DNA of 64,000 nt from Streptomyces sp. NBC_01571 (GTDB lineage: Bacteria; Actinomycetota; Actinomycetes; Streptomycetales; Streptomycetaceae). Shown in pieces: positions 14,405-23,186 of the stretch. The notes below the pieces were generated by a model, which was given only the letters and a program-made list of their open reading frames with translations, made no database searches and was not told the origin of the DNA. The DNA is taken from contig NZ_JAPEPZ010000001.1 of the NCBI RefSeq assembly GCF_026339875.1, forward strand, positions 2,790,001 through 2,854,000. The letters run 5' to 3'. The position numbers were made by a program, and so were the translations under genes. How positions within the stretch are numbered: position 1 is the stretch's first letter; every line of letters starts with the position of its first letter.

Positions 14405-15664
14405 TCAACCTTTCCACAGGGGCCGCACCGACCCGAGGTGTGAGCGGAGCGTCGTACCCGTGTATTCCGTGCGGAAGGCGCCCCGCTCCTGGAGCAGCGG
14501 GACCACCCGGTCGACGAACTCGTCGAGTCCGCCGGGGGCCGGACGGGGGACGAGGACGAAGCCGTCGGCGGCGCCGGCGGTCACGAACGCGTCCAGCTCG
14601 GCGGCGACCGCCTCCGGGGTGCCGACGTACGAGGGCCGTCCGTAGGCCTCGGAAAGAGGGCCGTCGGGGACGTACGGGCCGGTGCGCCGGACCTCCCACG
14701 GCGCGACGGTCGCGTTCCGCGCCGGAATCCCCTGGCCGTGCAGGTCGGCGGCCCGTTCCCTCGCCTCGGCGGCAGTGTCGCCGAGCACCACGGTCACGGC
14801 GGGCATGATCTTCAGGTCGCCGGGAGCGCGCCCGTACGTCGCGAGCCGCCTCTCCATGTCCGCGCGGAACTCCCGGCCCGCCTCCGGTGTCCGGTGCCGC
14901 GTGATGACGACCTCCGCGGTGGACGCGGCGAACTCCCGTCCCCCGTCCGAGTCGTCGGCCTGGATGATCACGGGGTGCCCCTGCGGCGAGCGCGGCACGC
15001 CGAACCCGCTCGCGACGTCGACACGCCGGCGCCGGCGGCCCGAGGGGCGCGGGCCGCCCTCCGGTGGACAGGAGTCCCACAACTCCCGTGCTATCTCGAC
15101 GAATTCGGCGGAACGCCCGAGAGCGGACTCCGCCGTCCGAGGGGGGCGGGAACCTCCTCGGCGACGAGCGGGCGGTTCCGGGACGCCGTCACGCCGGAGG
15201 CCCTCGCCGGGCACGGTGTCGCGGGAGGCGACCGTGGCCCAGGCGGCGCGGCCGGCACTGAGGTGGTCCAGCGTGACGAGTCTGCGGGCGAGCCCGTACG
15301 GCTCGTCGAGGGCCGCGCCGACCGCCGCGGCGAGCCCGAGCCGCTCGGTGACGGCGGCGAGCCCGTGGAGAACGGTCAGCGGCTCCGGGTGTCCGACGAC
15401 ATCCGGATCACAGGTCGTTCCCCGGTGTTCGCGCGGTCGCGGGCTCTCGGCGAGGAGGAGGAAGTCGAACAGGCCGCGCTCGGCGGTGCGCGCCAGGTGT
15501 GCGAAGGAGGCGAAGTCGCTCCGCGGGCCCGCGTACGGATCGATCTGCGGACCCTCGTACGCGCCGGTCCGCCGGCCCTCGTACGCGCCGGTCCCTGCGA
15601 CGAGGCTCCCACCGCCCGGCAGATGCGCCGCCAGATGGATCCTGCCGCGCGTCCGTACGGTCAT
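14405..15664 (-). CDS. LLM-class flavin-dependent monooxygenase (NtaA/SnaA/DszA type)
   Basis: A 419-residue luciferase-like TIM-barrel monooxygenase. FASFAHLARTAERGLFDFLLLAE (near 50-70) and QGHPVIIQADDSDGGREFAAS, which matches the FMN/phosphate-contacting segment of the DszA/NtaA branch, are visible. The C-terminal RTEYTGTTLRSHLGSVRP is also typical. Such enzymes use FMNH2 and O2 to oxidise or cleave C-S, C-N or sulfone bonds. A flavin reductase is not adjacent, though the FAD/NAD(P) protein upstream could help. Residues about 22-45 contain an 8-residue duplication (GAYEG repeats; DNA repeat 15552-15570 / 15576-15594). It overlaps the upstream monooxygenase by 4 bases. Substrate inferred only from context. 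Confidence 0.9.
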   Translation of the reverse strand: MTVRTRGRIHLAAHLPGGGSLVAGTGAYEGRRTGAYEGPQIDPYAGPRSDFASFAHLARTAERGLFDFLLLAESPRPREHRGTTCDPDVVGHPEPLTVLHGLAAVTERLGLAAAVGAALDEPYGLARRLVTLDHLSAGRAAWATVASRDTVPGEGLRRDGVPEPPARRRGGSRPPRTAESALGRSAEFVEIARELWDSCPPEGGPRPSGRRRRRVDVASGFGVPRSPQGHPVIIQADDSDGGREFAASTAEVVITRHRTPEAGREFRADMERRLATYGRAPGDLKIMPAVTVVLGDTAAEARERAADLHGQGIPARNATVAPWEVRRTGPYVPDGPLSEAYGRPSYVGTPEAVAAELDAFVTAGAADGFVLVPRPAPGGLDEFVDRVVPLLQERGAFRTEYTGTTLRSHLGSVRPLWKG

Positions 15665-16713
15665 GACGCTCCCCCGGTCACGGCGTACCGGCCTGCGGGC
15701 CGGGCCAGTCGAAGGTGCTCCCTGAGCGTGCTTCCCGGATAGAAGGTGCGGAACAGACCGCGGTGCTGGAGCAGCGCCACCGTTCCGTTCACGAGCCGTT
15801 CCAGGTCACGGCGTGGCTCGACCGGGGTCAGGTGGAAGCCGTCGACGGCCTCGGACTCGTGCCAGACGGCGATGAGTTCGGCGAGGCCGACGGGACCGCC
15901 CCGGTACAGCGGGCCCTGCGGGGTGTGCCGGGGACCGCCGCCGCCGTGGCCGGGCTCGGCCGCGCGTTCCCCGTCACCGAGGTCGACGGTGAGCGCGCCG
16001 AGGACTCTCAGCGTGCCGGGGGCGCGGCCGGACTCAGCCGCGGCATCGCGGAGTTCGGCCCTGAGGGCGCGGGCCTGCGCCGGACCGGTGACCCGCAGGA
16101 GTGCCACGTCGGCGTACCGGGCCGCGGTCCGGCGGGTGGAGCTCCCGGTGGCGTCCACGACCCGGACGGGGTGGCCCTGCGGAGGGCGCGGCTCGATCGA
16201 GGGACCCGTCACGGAGAACGTGCTGCCCCGGAAGTCGACGCGGTGCGGCCCGTCCCGGCCGCCGAAGCCGCCGGTCACGCCGTCACCCGCGCCAACGCCA
16301 GTGCCCGCGCCGGCGTCGCCTTCCCCGTCGGCCCGGAACCGGGCCTCATCCTCATCCTCGTACGCGTCGTACGCGTCCTCGTACTCGTCCGTGGGCCCGC
16401 CGGACTGCCAGCCGGCCCGGCCGCGGCTGATCCAGTCGAGGGTCGCCACCGCCTCGTGGACATGGCAGGACTCGGTGCGGGTGCCGGACACGGTCGGTAC
16501 GAGACCGATCCGGCGGGTGGCGGGCGCGACCCGGGCGAGCACTCCGAGCGTGTCGGGGCCGGGGTGCGCGAAGGCTCCGCCGAGCGTCACGAAGTCGAGC
16601 GCGCCACGCTCCGCGAGTCGCGCCGGCTCGACGTACGCGGCGGCGTCGAAGGACCCCCGCTGATCGACGGCGGCGGCCAGGTGCAGCAGCCCCCGGCCGT
16701 GCGGTGCGGTCAT
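15661..16713 (-). CDS. LLM-class flavin-dependent monooxygenase, second copy
   Basis: A 350-residue luciferase-like protein of the same branch as its downstream neighbour, though shorter. It ends with the same family C-terminus (RTFYPGSTLREHLRLARP). It carries the PQGHPVRVVDATGSS FMN-site segment. The middle has an acidic, low-complexity insertion (DEYEDAYDAYEDEDEARF, about 113-130) followed by a Gly-rich stretch, replacing part of a normal barrel loop. This suggests either a relaxed function or a partner role. The stop overlaps the start of the next monooxygenase (ATGA). The ABC ATPase gene ends 87 bases upstream. The paired architecture resembles two-enzyme systems for S-substituted cysteine breakdown in Bacillus. 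Confidence 0.88.
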   Translation of the reverse strand: MTAPHGRGLLHLAAAVDQRGSFDAAAYVEPARLAERGALDFVTLGGAFAHPGPDTLGVLARVAPATRRIGLVPTVSGTRTESCHVHEAVATLDWISRGRAGWQSGGPTDEYEDAYDAYEDEDEARFRADGEGDAGAGTGVGAGDGVTGGFGGRDGPHRVDFRGSTFSVTGPSIEPRPPQGHPVRVVDATGSSTRRTAARYADVALLRVTGPAQARALRAELRDAAAESGRAPGTLRVLGALTVDLGDGERAAEPGHGGGGPRHTPQGPLYRGGPVGLAELIAVWHESEAVDGFHLTPVEPRRDLERLVNGTVALLQHRGLFRTFYPGSTLREHLRLARPAGRYAVTGGAS

Positions 16714-16800: not shown

Positions 16801-17598
16801 TCAGAGGACCTTGGAGAGAAACGCCCGGGTCCGTTCCCGCCGCGGCCGGTCCAGTACGTCGCCGGGGGTGCCCCGCTCGACGATCCGTCCGTCGTCCATG
16901 AAGACGACGGTGTCGGCGACCTCGCGCGCGAAGCCGATCTCGTGCGTGACGACGATCATCGTGGTGCCCCGGTGCGCCAGGTCCCTGATGACGTCGAGGA
17001 CCTCCCCGACCAGCTCGGGGTCGAGCGCCGAGGTCGGTTCGTCGAAGAGCAGCAGCTTCGGCTCCAGGGCGAGCGCCCGTGCGATGGCGACCCGTTGCTG
17101 CTGTCCGCCGGAGAGCTGCCCGGGGTAGGCGTCGGCTCTGTCGGCGAGCCCGACCCGGTCGAGGAGCCCCCGTGCCGCCTCGACGGCGTCCTCGCGCGGA
17201 CGCTTCAGCGCGGAGACCGGCGCCTCGACGATGTTGTCCAGCACCGTGAGGTGCGGGAAGAGGTTGAAGTTCTGGAAGACGAAGCCGATCCGGGTGCGCT
17301 GTCCGAGGATCTCGCGCTCGCGCAGTTCGTACAGTCTGTCGCCGGAGCGCCGGTAGCCGACGAGCGCGCCGTCGACGGTGATCACACCCCGGTCCGGTTT
17401 CTCCAGGTGGTTGATCGTGCGCAGCAGGGTGGACTTGCCGGAGCCGGACGGTCCCAGGACGACGGCGACCTCGCCGGCGCGCACCTCCAGGTCGACGCCT
17501 TTGAGCACCTCCAGCGAACCGAAGCTCTTGTACACGGCCTTGATGTCCACCATGAGGCGGCCGGCGGCCGGCTCGTCCTTGCCGGGCAATGCGCTCAT
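16801..17598 (-). CDS. Polar amino acid ABC transporter ATP-binding protein
   Basis: A 265-residue ATPase of the HisP/GlnQ type. Walker [10 protein letters not shown] is at 49-57, the signature LSGGQQQR is near 160, Walker B is [14 protein letters not shown], and the switch His is in [12 protein letters not shown]. It energises import of an amino acid-like solute with the permease encoded at 19587-20438 and the lipoprotein at 20875-21840. It lies between the FAD/NAD(P) protein (78 bases upstream) and the monooxygenases in one operon. Confidence 0.93.
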
Positions 17599-17676: not shown

Positions 17677-19590
17677 TCAGGAGACGGGGCGGCAGGCGAG
17701 GTCGCGCAGGAACACCAGCGCGGCCCGGGCCGTCGCGTCGTTCTGCCGGAACGCCGGGCCGCCGGTACGCGGCCGGGTGAACGCGCCCGAGCCCCGGGCG
17801 TCGGTGTGCGGGCCGAGCGCGAAGCGCCGGGGGTGCGGGACACCGGAGCGGTCCAGGACCCTGCCGTCGGCGGGGTCGACGGCGAGCAGCCCCTCCGGGG
17901 TGGCCGCGGCCCCTTCGGCGTACAGCTCGCGCAGCAGCGTGTCGCGGGTCCGCTCGACCGTGGGGTGCGGCAGTCGCGCCTCGACGAGGGCCCGGGCCTC
18001 GACCGTCGCGCCGGGCACGGTGGCACTGCCCGCCCGGAAGACGCCCTCGGCGGCGGTGACGGTCATGTCAGCGCCCAGGAACCGCAGGATTCCGGCCCGT
18101 GACAGGGCCCGCATCTGGCGCAGCCGCGGTCCGGGCGGCCCCGAGGCGAGGAAGCTGAAGAAGCCGTGCCACCAGGAACCGATGTCACCGAGCCTGACCA
18201 ACTGCCCGTAGACCGAGAGCAGTCCGAGGAAAACCGCCGAGTCGGCGCTGTGCGCGGGGTCGTGACGTCTGGTCAGGTCGTCCTCGATGTAGGCGCGCAG
18301 TCCGGCCTGGAGTGCCTCGTACGAGGTGTGACGCACTCCGTCCAGCGGGCGGTCCAGTGCGGCGAGGTCGAGCCGGTCGGCGGGGTCGGGCACGGCGGAG
18401 GCCACCAGGGCCTGGATCTCGGGGCCGTCCCCGGTCCCGTACTTCTCCTCGAAGTCGGTCCAGGTGATCCGCGTGCGCTCGGGGTGGGCGGTGAACAGCC
18501 GGTGGTAGTGCGCGAACCCCAGCTCCTTCTCGACCAGCGGCCACACATCCCGCCGGAAGTCGAACCCGCCGGGGCGGGCGAGCAGTTCACCGACCTGGGC
18601 AGGCCCGAAGTACCGTGGCAGCGGCGGCCGTTCGCCCGTCCAGGCGTAACCGATCTTGGAGTGGTAGGGGACGCCGCGCCGGGAGCCGACGTACAGAACG
18701 GGCTCGCGTCCGGAGGGCAGATAGGTCTCCCCTTCGTACCGTCCGCCGCGCCCCTCGGTGAGCAGCACCATCAGGTCGACGAAGGCGAGCCCGAAGCCGC
18801 GGACGAGAACCGGTTCGCCCGGTCTCAGCGCCGCGAGGTCGCTGTCGGCGGTGAAGTCCGGCGGCAGGTGGACCAGGTCGTGCGCGCGGGCGTACGCGGC
18901 CAGTTCCCTCTGTTCGGCGTCGAGTTCGGCGTCGAGGTGACCGAGGGTGAGGACGACGAGGTCGGCGCGGAGCGGGTGCGTGCGGCCCTCCAGCCACACC
19001 GGTTGACGCCCGTCGTGTCCTTCGTCGACCCGCAGGGCCCGGCACGGATGGTGGTGGACCGTGATGCCCGGCGGCAGGGCGGCCACCGTTCGCTCGTACA
19101 CCCAGCGCAGGTACGCGCCCTGCCGCTGCCGGTCGGCGAAGACCCGTCCGTCGAGGGCGGCCCACTCGTGCAGCGTGGGGCCGGCCAGGACCGGCCCCGC
19201 CATGTCCACCGTCTCGTCGGTGAACATCGTGACGTCCTGGGCCTCGGAGTTCATCCACAGCAGCGGCGACTGCTCCTCGCGCCAGATACGGCCGCCGCCC
19301 GGCGGATACGGGTCGACGAGATGGATGTCGAGGCCCGAACCGGCGTACAGCTCCGGTGCGTTGGCGGCTATCCGCTCCAGGAGACCGGTCCCGCGGGGAC
19401 CGCCACCCACGATCACCAGCGCGGGACGCCCCGCGTTCTCCGGGTGCGTGGTCCCCGGGTGCGTGCCGGTCGGATGCGTGCCGGCCGGGTGCGCGGTCTC
19501 CGGCTGGGCGGTCGCCGAGGGCGTGGCCGTCGGACGCGCGGTCGCCGAGGGCGTGGCCACCGGATGCGTGGTCGCCTGACGCGTGCTCAT
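17677..19590 (-). CDS. FAD/NAD(P)-binding oxidoreductase
   Basis: A 637-residue protein of the FAD-NAD(P)-binding (NAD_binding_9) type. The dinucleotide-binding motif VIVGGGPRGTGLLERI lies at about 60-75, after an N-terminal Thr/Pro/His/Ala-rich low-complexity stretch. A second Rossmann-like element (DLVVLTLGHLD) and RGFGLAFVDLMVLL follow. Homologues are found beside LLM monooxygenases and amino acid ABC transporters in actinobacteria. A role in supplying reduced flavin or oxidising the imported thioether is inferred. The ATG at 19590 overlaps the permease stop (ATGA). The reading frame continues far upstream, but that part is the shadow of the permease gene. Confidence 0.86.
   Translation of the reverse strand: MSTRQATTHPVATPSATARPTATPSATAQPETAHPAGTHPTGTHPGTTHPENAGRPALVIVGGGPRGTGLLERIAANAPELYAGSGLDIHLVDPYPPGGGRIWREEQSPLLWMNSEAQDVTMFTDETVDMAGPVLAGPTLHEWAALDGRVFADRQRQGAYLRWVYERTVAALPPGITVHHHPCRALRVDEGHDGRQPVWLEGRTHPLRADLVVLTLGHLDAELDAEQRELAAYARAHDLVHLPPDFTADSDLAALRPGEPVLVRGFGLAFVDLMVLLTEGRGGRYEGETYLPSGREPVLYVGSRRGVPYHSKIGYAWTGERPPLPRYFGPAQVGELLARPGGFDFRRDVWPLVEKELGFAHYHRLFTAHPERTRITWTDFEEKYGTGDGPEIQALVASAVPDPADRLDLAALDRPLDGVRHTSYEALQAGLRAYIEDDLTRRHDPAHSADSAVFLGLLSVYGQLVRLGDIGSWWHGFFSFLASGPPGPRLRQMRALSRAGILRFLGADMTVTAAEGVFRAGSATVPGATVEARALVEARLPHPTVERTRDTLLRELYAEGAAATPEGLLAVDPADGRVLDRSGVPHPRRFALGPHTDARGSGAFTRPRTGGPAFRQNDATARAALVFLRDLACRPVS
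19508..19558. repeat. Direct repeat within the FAD protein N-terminus
   Basis: The 21-bp unit GCGGTCGCCGAGGGCGTGGCC occurs at 19508-19528 and again at 19538-19558 (period 30 bases, 10 codons). It encodes the duplicated Thr/Ala/Pro-rich N-terminal repeat of the FAD/NAD(P) protein. Confidence 0.7.
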
Positions 19591-20438
19591 CGGCTGCGCT
19601 CCGTACCGCGCGCGTAGTGCCTCTCGACGTGGAACTGGCCGAAGGAGAGCACCGAGGTGACGACGACGTACCAGAGGGTGGCCACCGTGAGCAGCGGGAT
19701 GACCTGGTAGGTGCGGTGGTAGACGAGCTGCGTGGAGTAGAGCAGGTCCTGCACGGCGATGACGCTGACGATGGAGGTGCCCTTGAGGGTGCCGATCAGC
19801 ATGTTCCCGGCCGGCGGCACGATCGAGCGCATCGCCTGCGGGAGCACGATCCGCCACCAGCGGCGCCACCGGCTCAGACCCAGCGCCTGTGCGGCCTCGA
19901 TCTGGCCGCGGTCGACGGAGAGGATGCCGCCGCGCACCACCTCGGCGGCGTACGCGGCCTCGTGCAGGGTCAGTCCGAGGACGGCGACGGTGACCGGACC
20001 GAGCAGGTTCACCGTCCGCACGCCGAGTATCTGCGGGTACAGCGCCCCGATGTTGAACCAGAACAGCAGCTGCACCAGGATCGGCATCGACCGGAACAGC
20101 CAGACATATCCCCAGCCGACCGCCCGCAGGACGGGGTTGGCCGACAGCCGGCACATGGCGAGCAGGGTGCCCAGCGCGAAGCCGAGCACCATCACGACCG
20201 CGGTCAGCCAGAGGGTGAGCCACAGGCCCCGCAGCACGGAGGCGGAGGTGAAGTAGTCGCCCACGACGCCCCATTGGAACGCCTCGTTGCGGGCGACGGA
20301 GTCGAGAGCGAGTCCGAGCAGGACCAGGACGACGACGGCGGCGGTCCACTGGCCGAGACGGCGCCGCGGGACGATGCGCAGGGACGCCGTGTCGTCCGGT
20401 ACGGCTTCGGGAATCTTGGTGAGGGTGTCCGAGGACAT
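19587..20438 (-). CDS. Polar amino acid ABC transporter permease
   Basis: A 283-residue membrane permease of the HisMQ/GltK family. Several transmembrane helices are evident (about 28-48, 65-90, 105-130, 160-180, 240-260). The EAA cytoplasmic-loop motif reads EAAQALGLSRWRRWWRIVLPQAM. It forms the channel for the ATPase at 16801-17598. It is the first gene of the reverse-strand operon. The binding-protein gene is divergent, 436 bases away, separated by a region containing the cysteine leader peptide. Confidence 0.92.
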   Translation of the reverse strand: MSSDTLTKIPEAVPDDTASLRIVPRRRLGQWTAAVVVLVLLGLALDSVARNEAFQWGVVGDYFTSASVLRGLWLTLWLTAVVMVLGFALGTLLAMCRLSANPVLRAVGWGYVWLFRSMPILVQLLFWFNIGALYPQILGVRTVNLLGPVTVAVLGLTLHEAAYAAEVVRGGILSVDRGQIEAAQALGLSRWRRWWRIVLPQAMRSIVPPAGNMLIGTLKGTSIVSVIAVQDLLYSTQLVYHRTYQVIPLLTVATLWYVVVTSVLSFGQFHVERHYARGTERSR

Positions 20439-20626
20439 GCGGAGGCTCCGTGATGCATCGAGTCGAGCACGGGTGCCTTCACACAGGTCAACGCGGGTGA
20501 CGCGAGGCGCGTACGGCCGAGCCCCTCAGCAGGGCCGTGCACCGAGAGTACGGGGACGTTTCCCCTCACTGTCAAGGCTGTCCACACTATGAGCCGTTCG
20601 TCTCAAGTCAGTTGACGCGGAAACGG
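20439..20626. promoter_or_regulatory. Divergent promoter region of the organosulfur cluster
   Basis: No gene in this stretch. It should carry the promoter of the permease-led operon (reverse) and that of the leader peptide/binding-protein transcript (forward). The permease frame stays open upstream of its ATG (including TRVDLCE on the reverse strand), but no better start or separate leader was accepted there. Confidence 0.35.
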
Positions 20627-20647
20627 ATGCCTGTTCCACTTGGGTCC

Positions 20648-20719
20648 ATGCATTCGCAGCAGTGGCTGGTCACGCGCTCCCACATCGACTTCGGTCGAGT
20701 GTGGTCCTCTTCCTGTTGA
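20648..20719 (+). CDS. Cysteine-type attenuator leader peptide
   Basis: A 23-codon frame ending VTRSHIDFGRVWSSSC-stop. This matches the actinobacterial putative leader peptide pattern R-x-H-x-D-x-x-R-x-x-S-x-x-C, found upstream of sulfur-metabolism genes with the Cys codon at or near the end. Known members act as ribosome-stalling sensors: when cysteine is scarce, stalling at the Cys codon changes the downstream RNA and allows expression. The stop lies 155 bases before the binding-protein gene. An in-frame ATG at 20627 is an alternative start; neither has a strong ribosome binding site, and leaderless translation is possible. Confidence 0.72.
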   Translation: MHSQQWLVTRSHIDFGRVWSSSC

Positions 20720-20874
20720 GCTGACCCCCTGCGCGACCGCCCGAATCGGGCGCCCTCCGCGTTTCCCCGCTCCCCCTCAGGCCTTCACACGCGCACCCCT
20801 CCCCTCTCCGTACCCCTCCCCTCTCCGTACCCCTCCGCGCTCCTTCGCTCCCCGCCTCCAGGAGACCCCACACC

Positions 20875-21840
20875 ATGCGTACGTTCACGCGTACCCGCAA
20901 CAGGCGTTTTGCGCCCTTTGCCCTTCTCGCCTCCACGACTCTGCTGCTCACGGCCTGCGGCTCCGGTACCACCGGTTCCGGCGACGGCGGCGGGGGAGGC
21001 ACCGCCCAGGCCGCGGCCGGGAGCGACGCGATCCCCACCGCGGACGTCGTCTCGGCCGTCAAGAAGGACGAGGCGGCGGCCAGGTTGCTGCCCGCCGGGG
21101 TCACCGGCCTCACCGTCGCCGTCAGCGTCTCCGGCCAGCCGCCCGGCACCGCGTATCTCAAGGACGGGAAGACGCTCGCGGGCCAGGACGTCGACTTCGC
21201 GGACGCGGTCGCGAAAGCCCTCGGCATCGGCCTGAAGCACGAGTCGGCGAGTTTCGAGGCGATCCTGCCGGCGCTCGACAGCGGCAAGTACGACTTCGGG
21301 GCCAGCAACTTCGGCGTCACCGACGAACGCCGCAAGGTGATCGACTTCGTCACCTACATCAACGACGGCCAGGGCTTCGCCACCCGCGCGGACAGCGGGC
21401 TGAAGGCCGTCACCGACCTGCGGCAGCTGTGCGGACTGAACGTCGCGACCGGCGCGGGGACGACGTTCGAGGCGACGCTCGAGGACAACAGGAAGGTCTG
21501 CGCGGACGCGGGCGAGAAGGCGTACAAGGTGCAGACCTACAGCGAGCAGGGCGCGATCTGGTCCTCGCTCCAACAGGGCCGCAGCGACATCGTGATGTCC
21601 ACCATCAACGGACTGCGCTACGCCGTCGCGCACCAGACGGGCGTCAAGTTCCTCAACGAGTACCACCGTCTGGACGTCGGCTTCGCCTTCAAGAAGAACA
21701 CCGCGCTGGCCCCCGCCTTCCAGGCAGCGGTGAACAGGCTGATCGCGGACGGCACGTACGCGAAGATCCTGAGGAAGTGGGGAACGACGGGGTCGGCGAT
21801 CGACACGTCCCGGATCTCACCGCCGGAACAGAAGAACTGA
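20875..21840 (+). CDS. ABC transporter substrate-binding lipoprotein
   Basis: A 321-residue extracellular solute-binding protein of family 3 (polar amino acids). A lipobox ending LTAC places the lipidated residue at Cys28. After a Gly/Ser linker the two-lobed binding domain shows KTLAGQDVDFADAVAKALG and GKYDFGASNFGVTDERRKVIDFVTY. The latter is the conserved segment that in amino acid binders grips the alpha-carboxylate (Arg in DERR). It is the likely substrate sensor for the transporter encoded on the other strand. The long 5' region (20720-20874) follows the Cys leader peptide, so expression is probably cysteine- or sulfur-responsive. Confidence 0.92.
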   Translation: MRTFTRTRNRRFAPFALLASTTLLLTACGSGTTGSGDGGGGGTAQAAAGSDAIPTADVVSAVKKDEAAARLLPAGVTGLTVAVSVSGQPPGTAYLKDGKTLAGQDVDFADAVAKALGIGLKHESASFEAILPALDSGKYDFGASNFGVTDERRKVIDFVTYINDGQGFATRADSGLKAVTDLRQLCGLNVATGAGTTFEATLEDNRKVCADAGEKAYKVQTYSEQGAIWSSLQQGRSDIVMSTINGLRYAVAHQTGVKFLNEYHRLDVGFAFKKNTALAPAFQAAVNRLIADGTYAKILRKWGTTGSAIDTSRISPPEQKN

Positions 21841-21953: not shown

Positions 21954-23186
21954 TCAGATCCCGCAGTCGCAGCAACTGCAGCATTCACAGCACTCGCAGG
22001 CCTCGCAGCAGTCGCAGCAGGAGCAGTCGCAGTTGCCGCACCAGCCCTCGCGCCGCTGCCGGGACCACGGCCCCTCGAACTCGTCGGCGCAGCACACCTT
22101 GCAGGTGCAGCAGAGTCCGATCGCGGCGGCGCACCCGGCCCAGAAGCCGCGCCCACCGGGCCCCGGCGGCCGGAAGGAGGGCCCGCCGCCGAGAGGGTCG
22201 CCCCCGCCGACGTAGGGATTCCGCCCGTCGTACGGACGCTGCGGCTGCTGCGGGTTGTACGGGCCGCCCTGCCCCGGTGGCCCGAAGGCGCCCGCCGCTA
22301 CCGGACCGTCGTGCTCCCCGTGCCCGCACCCCGACGTCCCGAAGGCCCGGTCCACCGAACGCGACAGCTCGTGCGCGAGCAGGACGTGCGCCAGCCTGCC
22401 GTCCGTGAACGCGACCTCGCGCAGCGCCAGCCGTATCCCGTGCAGCGCGTCGTCGGCGAGCCGACGGGCCTCGGTGAGTGGCGTCCCGGTTGCCGTCAGT
22501 GGGTTCCAGGCTCCCGACGCGGCGTCAGTTTCCCTGTCCTCCACGGCGTCCAGCAGGTGCGCGAGCCGTCCGAAGAGCCGGCCGGCCTCGGCGAGCGGTG
22601 CGGCGTTGCCCGGCCGGCCGGCGAGGACGGCGGTGTGGGCGAAGGCGGCCGCGGTCGCGGACTCGGTCGGCTCGGTGACGGTCAGCAGCGGTGTTCCCGG
22701 CCCGGCGAGCGTCTCGATGCCGATCTGCCGGTCCACGGCGTCGACCAGGACGGCGGTGTCGAAGCCGACCTCGGATCCGGTGCGGGCCCCGGCGCGCCCC
22801 CAGCTCGCGGCGACCCGGCGCGCGGCGAGCGCCACCGGCCTGCGGGCCAACAGACCGTCCCCGTCGGCCACGTGGTCGCGCACCTTGGCGGAGGCCAGTA
22901 CCAGTGAGACGGCGGCGGCGAGCCGGGCGCCGTCGCCCTGCGCGACGGACGCGGTCCGCATGCCGCGCAGGGGGCAGGGGCCCGCCGTACGCCGGCCCCC
23001 GCCGGCGCGCTCGACCTGAGCCTCCGTCAAAACCGATATCAGCAGACCGTCGTAATTGGTGACGATCCGAGCGAACTGCCCGTGGTCCCCGCGCAACGCG
23101 AGGCAGAGCCCGCACAGATGCGCCATCCACTGGGTCTTGAGCCCTTCACCGAGCCGGTGGCTGCAGGGCCTCACGATTCCGAACAC
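21954..23186 (-). CDS. DUF5685 family protein with Cys-rich tail
   Basis: A 410-residue protein starting MFGIVRPCSHRLGEGL, the typical DUF5685 opening, with HLCGLCLALRGDHGQFARIVTNYD as a further conserved block. The N-terminal ~290 residues look helical and soluble. A Gly/Pro/Tyr-rich linker (about 295-350) follows. The C-terminus is extremely Cys-rich, with 14 Cys among the last 25 residues plus CCTCKVCCADEF and WCGNC just before. This could bind zinc, copper or an Fe-S cluster, or be a lipid/thiol-modified anchor. Family function is unknown. It is convergent with the binding-protein gene and divergent from sepF. Confidence 0.85.
   Translation of the reverse strand: MFGIVRPCSHRLGEGLKTQWMAHLCGLCLALRGDHGQFARIVTNYDGLLISVLTEAQVERAGGGRRTAGPCPLRGMRTASVAQGDGARLAAAVSLVLASAKVRDHVADGDGLLARRPVALAARRVAASWGRAGARTGSEVGFDTAVLVDAVDRQIGIETLAGPGTPLLTVTEPTESATAAAFAHTAVLAGRPGNAAPLAEAGRLFGRLAHLLDAVEDRETDAASGAWNPLTATGTPLTEARRLADDALHGIRLALREVAFTDGRLAHVLLAHELSRSVDRAFGTSGCGHGEHDGPVAAGAFGPPGQGGPYNPQQPQRPYDGRNPYVGGGDPLGGGPSFRPPGPGGRGFWAGCAAAIGLCCTCKVCCADEFEGPWSRQRREGWCGNCDCSCCDCCEACECCECCSCCDCGI

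Follow-up and report, generated by a model that had tools for sequence, protein, structure and literature searches.

The 64,000-nucleotide stretch of Streptomyces sp. NBC_01571 DNA analyzed here (the window) contains a short leader ORF ending in cysteine, which is real and strongly conserved. It lies ahead of a substrate-binding protein (SBP) gene and faces away from a sulfur operon on the opposite strand. We think it somewhat probable that this is a leaderless, cysteine-sensing leader with two outputs, attenuation of the SBP gene in cis and release of the start site of the divergent operon in trans. Judged from sequence comparisons and folding models, this combination is the best-supported mechanism for the locus.

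A conserved cysteine-terminated leader ORF

The leader ORF, MHSQQWLVTRSHIDFGRVWSSSC*, occupies 20648..20719 on the forward strand, with an ATG start and a TGT TGA end. A preliminary description of the interval 20627-20874, within which the leader feature indeed falls, had reported a 23-codon, Cys-terminated frame with the pattern R-x-H-x-D-x-x-R-x-x-S-x-x-C, placed 155 bases ahead of an ABC lipoprotein gene. Frame, pattern and distance were all borne out, the SBP gene starting at 20875. In nucleotide form the pattern matches only once in the whole window, compared to a mean of 0.06 matches in shuffled sequence (at least one match in 6 of 100 shuffles).

For comparison, we fetched the best 80 of 341 loci by SBP protein similarity (titles Streptomyces, with one Kitasatospora), which together with the window make up the 81 SBP loci. 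The leader frame is present at all of these best 80 of 341 loci as well as in the window, and the residue spacing ending in Cys is kept in 81/81 orthologues. The terminal Cys codon (20714..20716, +) is the rare codon TGT in 81/81; Cys codons of the SBP genes at the same loci are 241 TGC vs 1 TGT. TGA follows the last Cys in 80/81 SBP loci, the frame of L073 continuing for a few codons more, and 27/81 leaders have a second Cys two codons before the invariant one.

Many synonymous positions of the ORF are invariant among the 81 SBP loci as well. These frozen positions fold as a hairpin, CCACAUCGAC-UUCG-GUCGNGUGUGG, which is represented in the window by hairpin P1 (20680..20704, +; CCACAUCGAC-UUCG-GUCGAGUGUGG). 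P1 lies in the low tail of synonymous codings: it ranked in the lowest 3% for 43/43 distinct leader DNAs (median 0.0135, maximum 0.026). The same search in seven paralogue leaders gave ranks of 0.09-0.72, with none below 0.09. A sample of 197 genomes from across the order contained a 26-base hairpin core of the leader in 104 cases, spread over 3 of 6 genera. The exact core was also seen within the ORF at L206-L212, from another family of the order, and at L208 it is followed by a monooxygenase-like start (by eye).

Upstream of the ORF are a -35-like TTGACG (20612..20617, +) and a -10-like TCCACT (20635..20640, +), a putative leader promoter. TTGAC is found in 81/81 SBP loci and the -10 block TGTTCCACT in 80/81, separated by a spacer of 17 nt in 79 loci and 18 nt in 2. 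Because the -10-like box sits 6 nt (73 loci) or 7 nt (8 loci) before the ATG, the transcript is probably leaderless, with its start at or near this codon.

The preliminary description had placed the leader among actinobacterial Cys attenuator peptides. Support for this kinship comes from a weak match to NCBIfam NF042936 (Ms4527A Cys-rich leader; 21.7 bits, E 1.1e-4, curated cut-off 45 bits), a family that in our own reading of the match is defined by R.H.D..R..S..C-type spacing, and from sulfur-type genes behind paralogous leaders. A search of the same genome with NF042936 gave 12 candidate places, 0 of them above the cut-off. Besides the leader studied here, six paralogues in this genome carry R.H.D..R..S..C, and in a seventh (L088) the S is replaced by G; the motif Cys codon is TGT in 7/7. 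Pfam domains of the genes behind six paralogues are 2OG-FeII_Oxy, NIR_SIR, BPD_transp_1, Bac_luciferase, ThiS followed by PALP, and Flavin_Reduct. Of these, BPD_transp_1 and 2OG-FeII_Oxy do not by themselves imply sulfur specificity, and the pair of ThiS and PLP enzyme is, in our reading, CysO and cysteine synthase. Since genes of sulfite-reductase, cysteine-synthase-like and monooxygenase type lie behind paralogous leaders of this genome, the best reading of the leader is that it would sense cysteine.

One further leader-like frame of this genome (L089, C1:8323515-8323553) ends in LTRRLHIDLQRVSSAY-stop; its last residue is Tyr, and Cys is lacking. It is possibly decayed or of other specificity. 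The string GAGAC was observed in five of six sulfur-leader upstream regions inspected by eye (L081, L084, L085, L086 and L087), and L082 has GAGAT.

Genes that accompany the leader

The presumed cis target is the SBP_bac_3 lipoprotein gene (20875..21840, +; PF00497). On the opposite strand, the divergent operon comprises genes for an ABC permease (PERM, 19587..20438, -; PF00528), an FAD-NAD(P)-binding protein (FADNAD, 17677..19590, -; PF13454, start chosen by reading), an ABC ATPase with TcyN as its closest NCBIfam model, below cut-off (16801..17598, -), and two luciferase-like monooxygenases, LLM1 (15661..16713, -) and LLM2 (14405..15664, -), both matching PF00296 and, below cut-off, TIGR03860.

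An exact 32-base leader core was found in 81 of 199 Streptomyces genomes. In 58 of these 81, an SBP orthologue (accepted up to E 1e-80 in this core-selected set) starts 128-949 bases past the core, and there is none in the other 23, here called orphans. As this set had been picked by the leader core, we re-anchored the comparison on the divergent FADNAD, keeping 103 Streptomyces loci from 114 listed, down to E 3.3e-119. A leader DNA match was present at 102/103 of these loci; 101 of the matches are divergent and one shares the strand of FADNAD, and their positions range between 0.5 kb inside FADNAD and 4 kb upstream. SBP follows the leader within 3.5 kb in 72 and is absent there in 30; at nine class-2 loci it is about 1.9 kb away. 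The earlier interpretation is supported as to the type of leader; that control of the SBP gene is what the leader is for is not supported as worded, with the leader at 102/103 loci and SBP behind it within 3.5 kb in only 72. Judged by this distribution, the evolutionary partner of the leader is the divergent sulfur operon, more than the SBP gene behind it.

The orphan loci had been selected by the 32-nt leader core alone. When all 23 were searched by tblastn with the proteins of the locus, no SBP was found behind the leader, except for a remnant in L103. All 22 divergent orphans keep TTGAC, TGTTCCACT and TGTTGA; CTCCCCTC is found in 21 and GCCTTCA on both sides in 18. Further diverged loci without an SBP match (among L168-L181) also keep their leaders and, by eye, mostly keep related repeats.

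What follows the leader in the orphans varies. In 15/23 a convergent DUF5685 gene is found at a distance of 185-1007 bases from the core, and in 5 at 2.3-4.2 kb; among the 23 it is absent behind the leader in L149 and L153, and L152 is rearranged. The frame listing gave a convergent GTPase-like frame in L137 and L148 and a convergent long frame in L143, and L142, L145, L149 and L153 may have a different gene downstream of the leader. The window itself encodes a convergent DUF5685 protein with a very Cys-rich tail, CGNCDCSCCDCCEACECCECCSCCDCGI, at 21954-23186 (-), which is often the convergent neighbor of the leader. At four loci (L157, L158, L160 and L162), a forward-strand frame starting MTFALSVHRTTTTDPLARPLLDELA, translated by eye, was observed between leader and SBP; L159 and L161 have similar frames.

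A repeat pair and the start site of the divergent operon

The string GCCTTCACAC occurs at 20475-20484 and 20781-20790 in the window. In the 81 SBP loci (1.18 Mb) it was found 75 times on the left, 73 times on the right and 0 times elsewhere, always in + orientation. The right copy would be transcribed in the leader RNA as element E1 (GCCUUCACAC; 20781..20790, +), which is the exact complement of E1' (GUGUGAAGGC; 20475..20484, -) in the presumed 5'UTR of the divergent mRNA, a proposed anti-RBS element.

Loci altered in one copy tend toward an altered other copy. With kinship ignored, left/right similarity was 10.64 for cognate vs 9.93 for permuted pairs over all 127 loci (0/20000 permutations), 11.11 vs 11.01 for the 88 canonical loci (p 0.034) and 9.56 vs 8.38 for the 39 non-canonical loci (0/20000); controls with the right side reversed gave p 0.66 and 0.37. 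Distinct differences between E1 and E1' showed no G-U bias (15 G-U compatible vs 26 incompatible transitions, chance flanks included), and full duplex energies did not separate cognate pairs (p 0.11 for 127 loci, p 0.09 for 39 loci). For trans pairing of the kind described for rnTrpL, complementarity and co-variation were observed; the duplex-energy and G-U tests gave no support.

Single exceptions were L154, where the left copy is absent, and L161, where it is changed. At the class-2 loci L183, L184 and L187, a different repeat pair around GTCGTCACGC was observed in the same places (L184 by eye), with a paralogous SBP about 1.9 kb on. A search for other E1 targets in the same genome gave 20 GTGTGAAGGC sites, 2 of them the known copies; among the 18 others only L191 has an RBS-like string within 85 nt, which we judged to be a chance match.

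For the divergent operon, a conserved block and its position suggest a promoter with -35-like TTGACA (20570..20575, -) and -10-like TACTCT (20545..20550, -). Hairpin H_L (20514..20537, -), with the loop UGAGGG, lies close to where this mRNA is presumed to begin. Its arms pair better in cognate than in permuted combinations (231 vs 213.1, sd 4.1; 0/5000; 38 distinct arm pairs, kinship ignored). The leader RNA holds an element complementary to this loop, E2 (CCUCCCCUC; 20798..20806, +, with a second copy at 20815-20823), which was found in 97 of 112 E1-bearing loci, compared to 1.8 expected from shuffles.

In most loci, E1' is complementary to the segment of RBS and start codon of the divergent operon (20436..20452, -), which in the window reads CACGGAGCCUCCGCAUG and has one mismatch. 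Pairing of E1' with the RBS at 118 distinct loci scored 8.60 for cognate and 8.41 for permuted combinations (p 5e-5, kinship ignored); split by RBS, and again with kinship ignored, p was 0.005 for 55 non-standard and 0.09 for 63 standard sequences. A control with reversed wobbles had a mean of 5.83 and p still 0.04, and the gap of 8.60 vs 5.83 is largely due to two G-U positions common to most loci. At class-2 loci the RBS has no match to E1'. In folding models, blocking E1' freed the RBS more than blocking any window more than 10 nt off in 85 of 116 UTRs, with a median RBS gain of 5.6 kcal/mol. E1' is thus predicted to be inhibitory to the divergent RBS.

Between the leader ORF and E1 lies a weak terminator-like hairpin, T (20738..20752, +). 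Of the hairpins in this region it scores best, with a median z of -1.67 across 110 distinct loci, and the 10 nt behind it contain 3.5 U on average; as a terminator it is predicted to be only moderately strong. An Rfam search of 20380-20900 gave 0 matches. E1 is predicted to be open whether or not a ribosome occupies the Cys codon (median over 105 RNAs, 1.94 vs 1.95 kcal/mol). Since the modeled Cys stall leaves E1 accessibility unchanged, cysteine would have to act via termination before E1. We rejected a switch in which E1 pairs with CGNGUGUGG, an arm of the leader ORF: the predicted pairing was near zero and E1 accessibility was unmoved by the stall.

Proposed mechanism, alternatives and related systems

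In the mechanism that we favor, a ribosome translating the leader would halt at the terminal UGU when cysteine is short, transcription would proceed past the attenuator, and RNA containing E1 and E2 would be made. The cis output would be attenuation of the SBP gene by the Cys leader. In trans, E1 of the leader RNA would pair with E1' of the divergent mRNA, which would otherwise lock the RBS and start codon, and the start site would be freed; E2 may dock on the H_L loop. We infer a positive sign of control, such that SBP would be switched on together with the transporter, flavoprotein and monooxygenase genes of the divergent operon. That a single sensor of cysteine controls two operons, one on each strand, by an RNA that is made only at low cysteine and unlocks the divergent start codon, is a tentative proposal to which we give slightly less than an even chance. 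In such a two-operon arrangement, the sensor would persist after the gene behind it is lost because RNA is now what it produces.

The leader could instead be a plain cis Cys attenuator of SBP, the orphans being recent SBP losses and E1 and E1' having nothing to do with RNA pairing. An SBP no more than 3.5 kb past the leader in 72/103 loci, the likeness of the paralogues to cis leaders of sulfur-type genes and the short SBP remnant in L103 would all agree with this. However, we hold it to be unlikely: 22/22 core-selected divergent orphans retain the promoter boxes and UGUUGA, 21 of them CTCCCCTC and 18 the two-sided GCCTTCA, and the diverged SBP-less loci keep their leaders and mostly the related repeats (by eye).

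Co-variation of the two repeat copies and differences without G-U bias would also be expected of double-stranded DNA operators, bound by a shared regulator and flanking the divergent promoters. We regard such operators as distinctly unlikely, given that E1' resembles the RBS too and tracks its changes, that variable-length hairpins are seen by eye inside the right element at several loci, and that the presumed starts are upstream of both copies. Antisense pairing close to a start codon often represses, so that the leader RNA might shut the divergent operon down, by an antisense block or RNase III, rather than activate it. This appears very improbable, as E1' is itself predicted to be inhibitory and covering it should therefore release the RBS.

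Release of a start site in trans has precedents in DsrA-rpoS and RNAIII-hla, in which a small RNA covers an anti-RBS segment and translation is freed. To our knowledge, these systems have neither a leader ORF nor amino-acid sensing, and the target is no divergent neighbor.

The closest known systems are mycobacterial Cys leaders and rnTrpL (PMC7298713). For the mycobacterial polycysteine leaderless leaders, PMC13236596 and PMC9094748 cite Canestrari 2020 as the source. The Streptomyces leader resembles the Ms4527A leaders (NF042936) in being short and Cys-terminated, in residue spacing and by the weak HMM match; it differs in scoring below the family cut-off, in having one invariant Cys instead of a Cys run, and in its in-ORF hairpin, E1/E2 and persistence without a downstream gene. 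In Sinorhizobium meliloti, the attenuator RNA rnTrpL has its 5' end at the leader ATG and destabilizes trpDC mRNA in trans (PMC7298713). The RNA proposed here would, like that of rnTrpL/peTrpL, start at the leader ATG and act in trans; unlike rnTrpL, its target would be the divergently transcribed neighbor and its predicted effect start-site release. Ribosome-mediated transcription attenuators, as presented in PMC13236596 and PMC8079986, have a regulatory codon in a leader ORF and hairpins after it. The Streptomyces leader would share this layout; in contrast to the attenuators presented there, it has no clear U-run intrinsic terminator and is kept without a downstream gene. In the open-access literature searched, we recognized no report on this locus or on a divergent mRNA as the target of a Cys leader.

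Leader peptides have mostly been treated as cis devices. If true, our proposal would illustrate the conversion of an attenuator into a trans-acting RNA and the way in which one amino-acid sensor keeps a two-strand transporter in step. Two one-strand versions of the locus provide natural material that makes the idea directly testable. In L168, leader, E1, E1', RBS and FADNAD are all on one strand, and TGAGGG and CCTCCCCTC are absent from the stretch inspected. In L152, the leader is followed on its own strand by an E1'-RBS unit, a short frame and LLM1, the E1-like match being short (by eye). At two other loci, L062 and L069, the RBS is GGAGUCCCGCAUG, CCCGCACTC forms part of the left element, and CCGCACTC has been gained on the right, where a GCCTTCACGC also remains; as these loci are similar, the changes probably represent one event.
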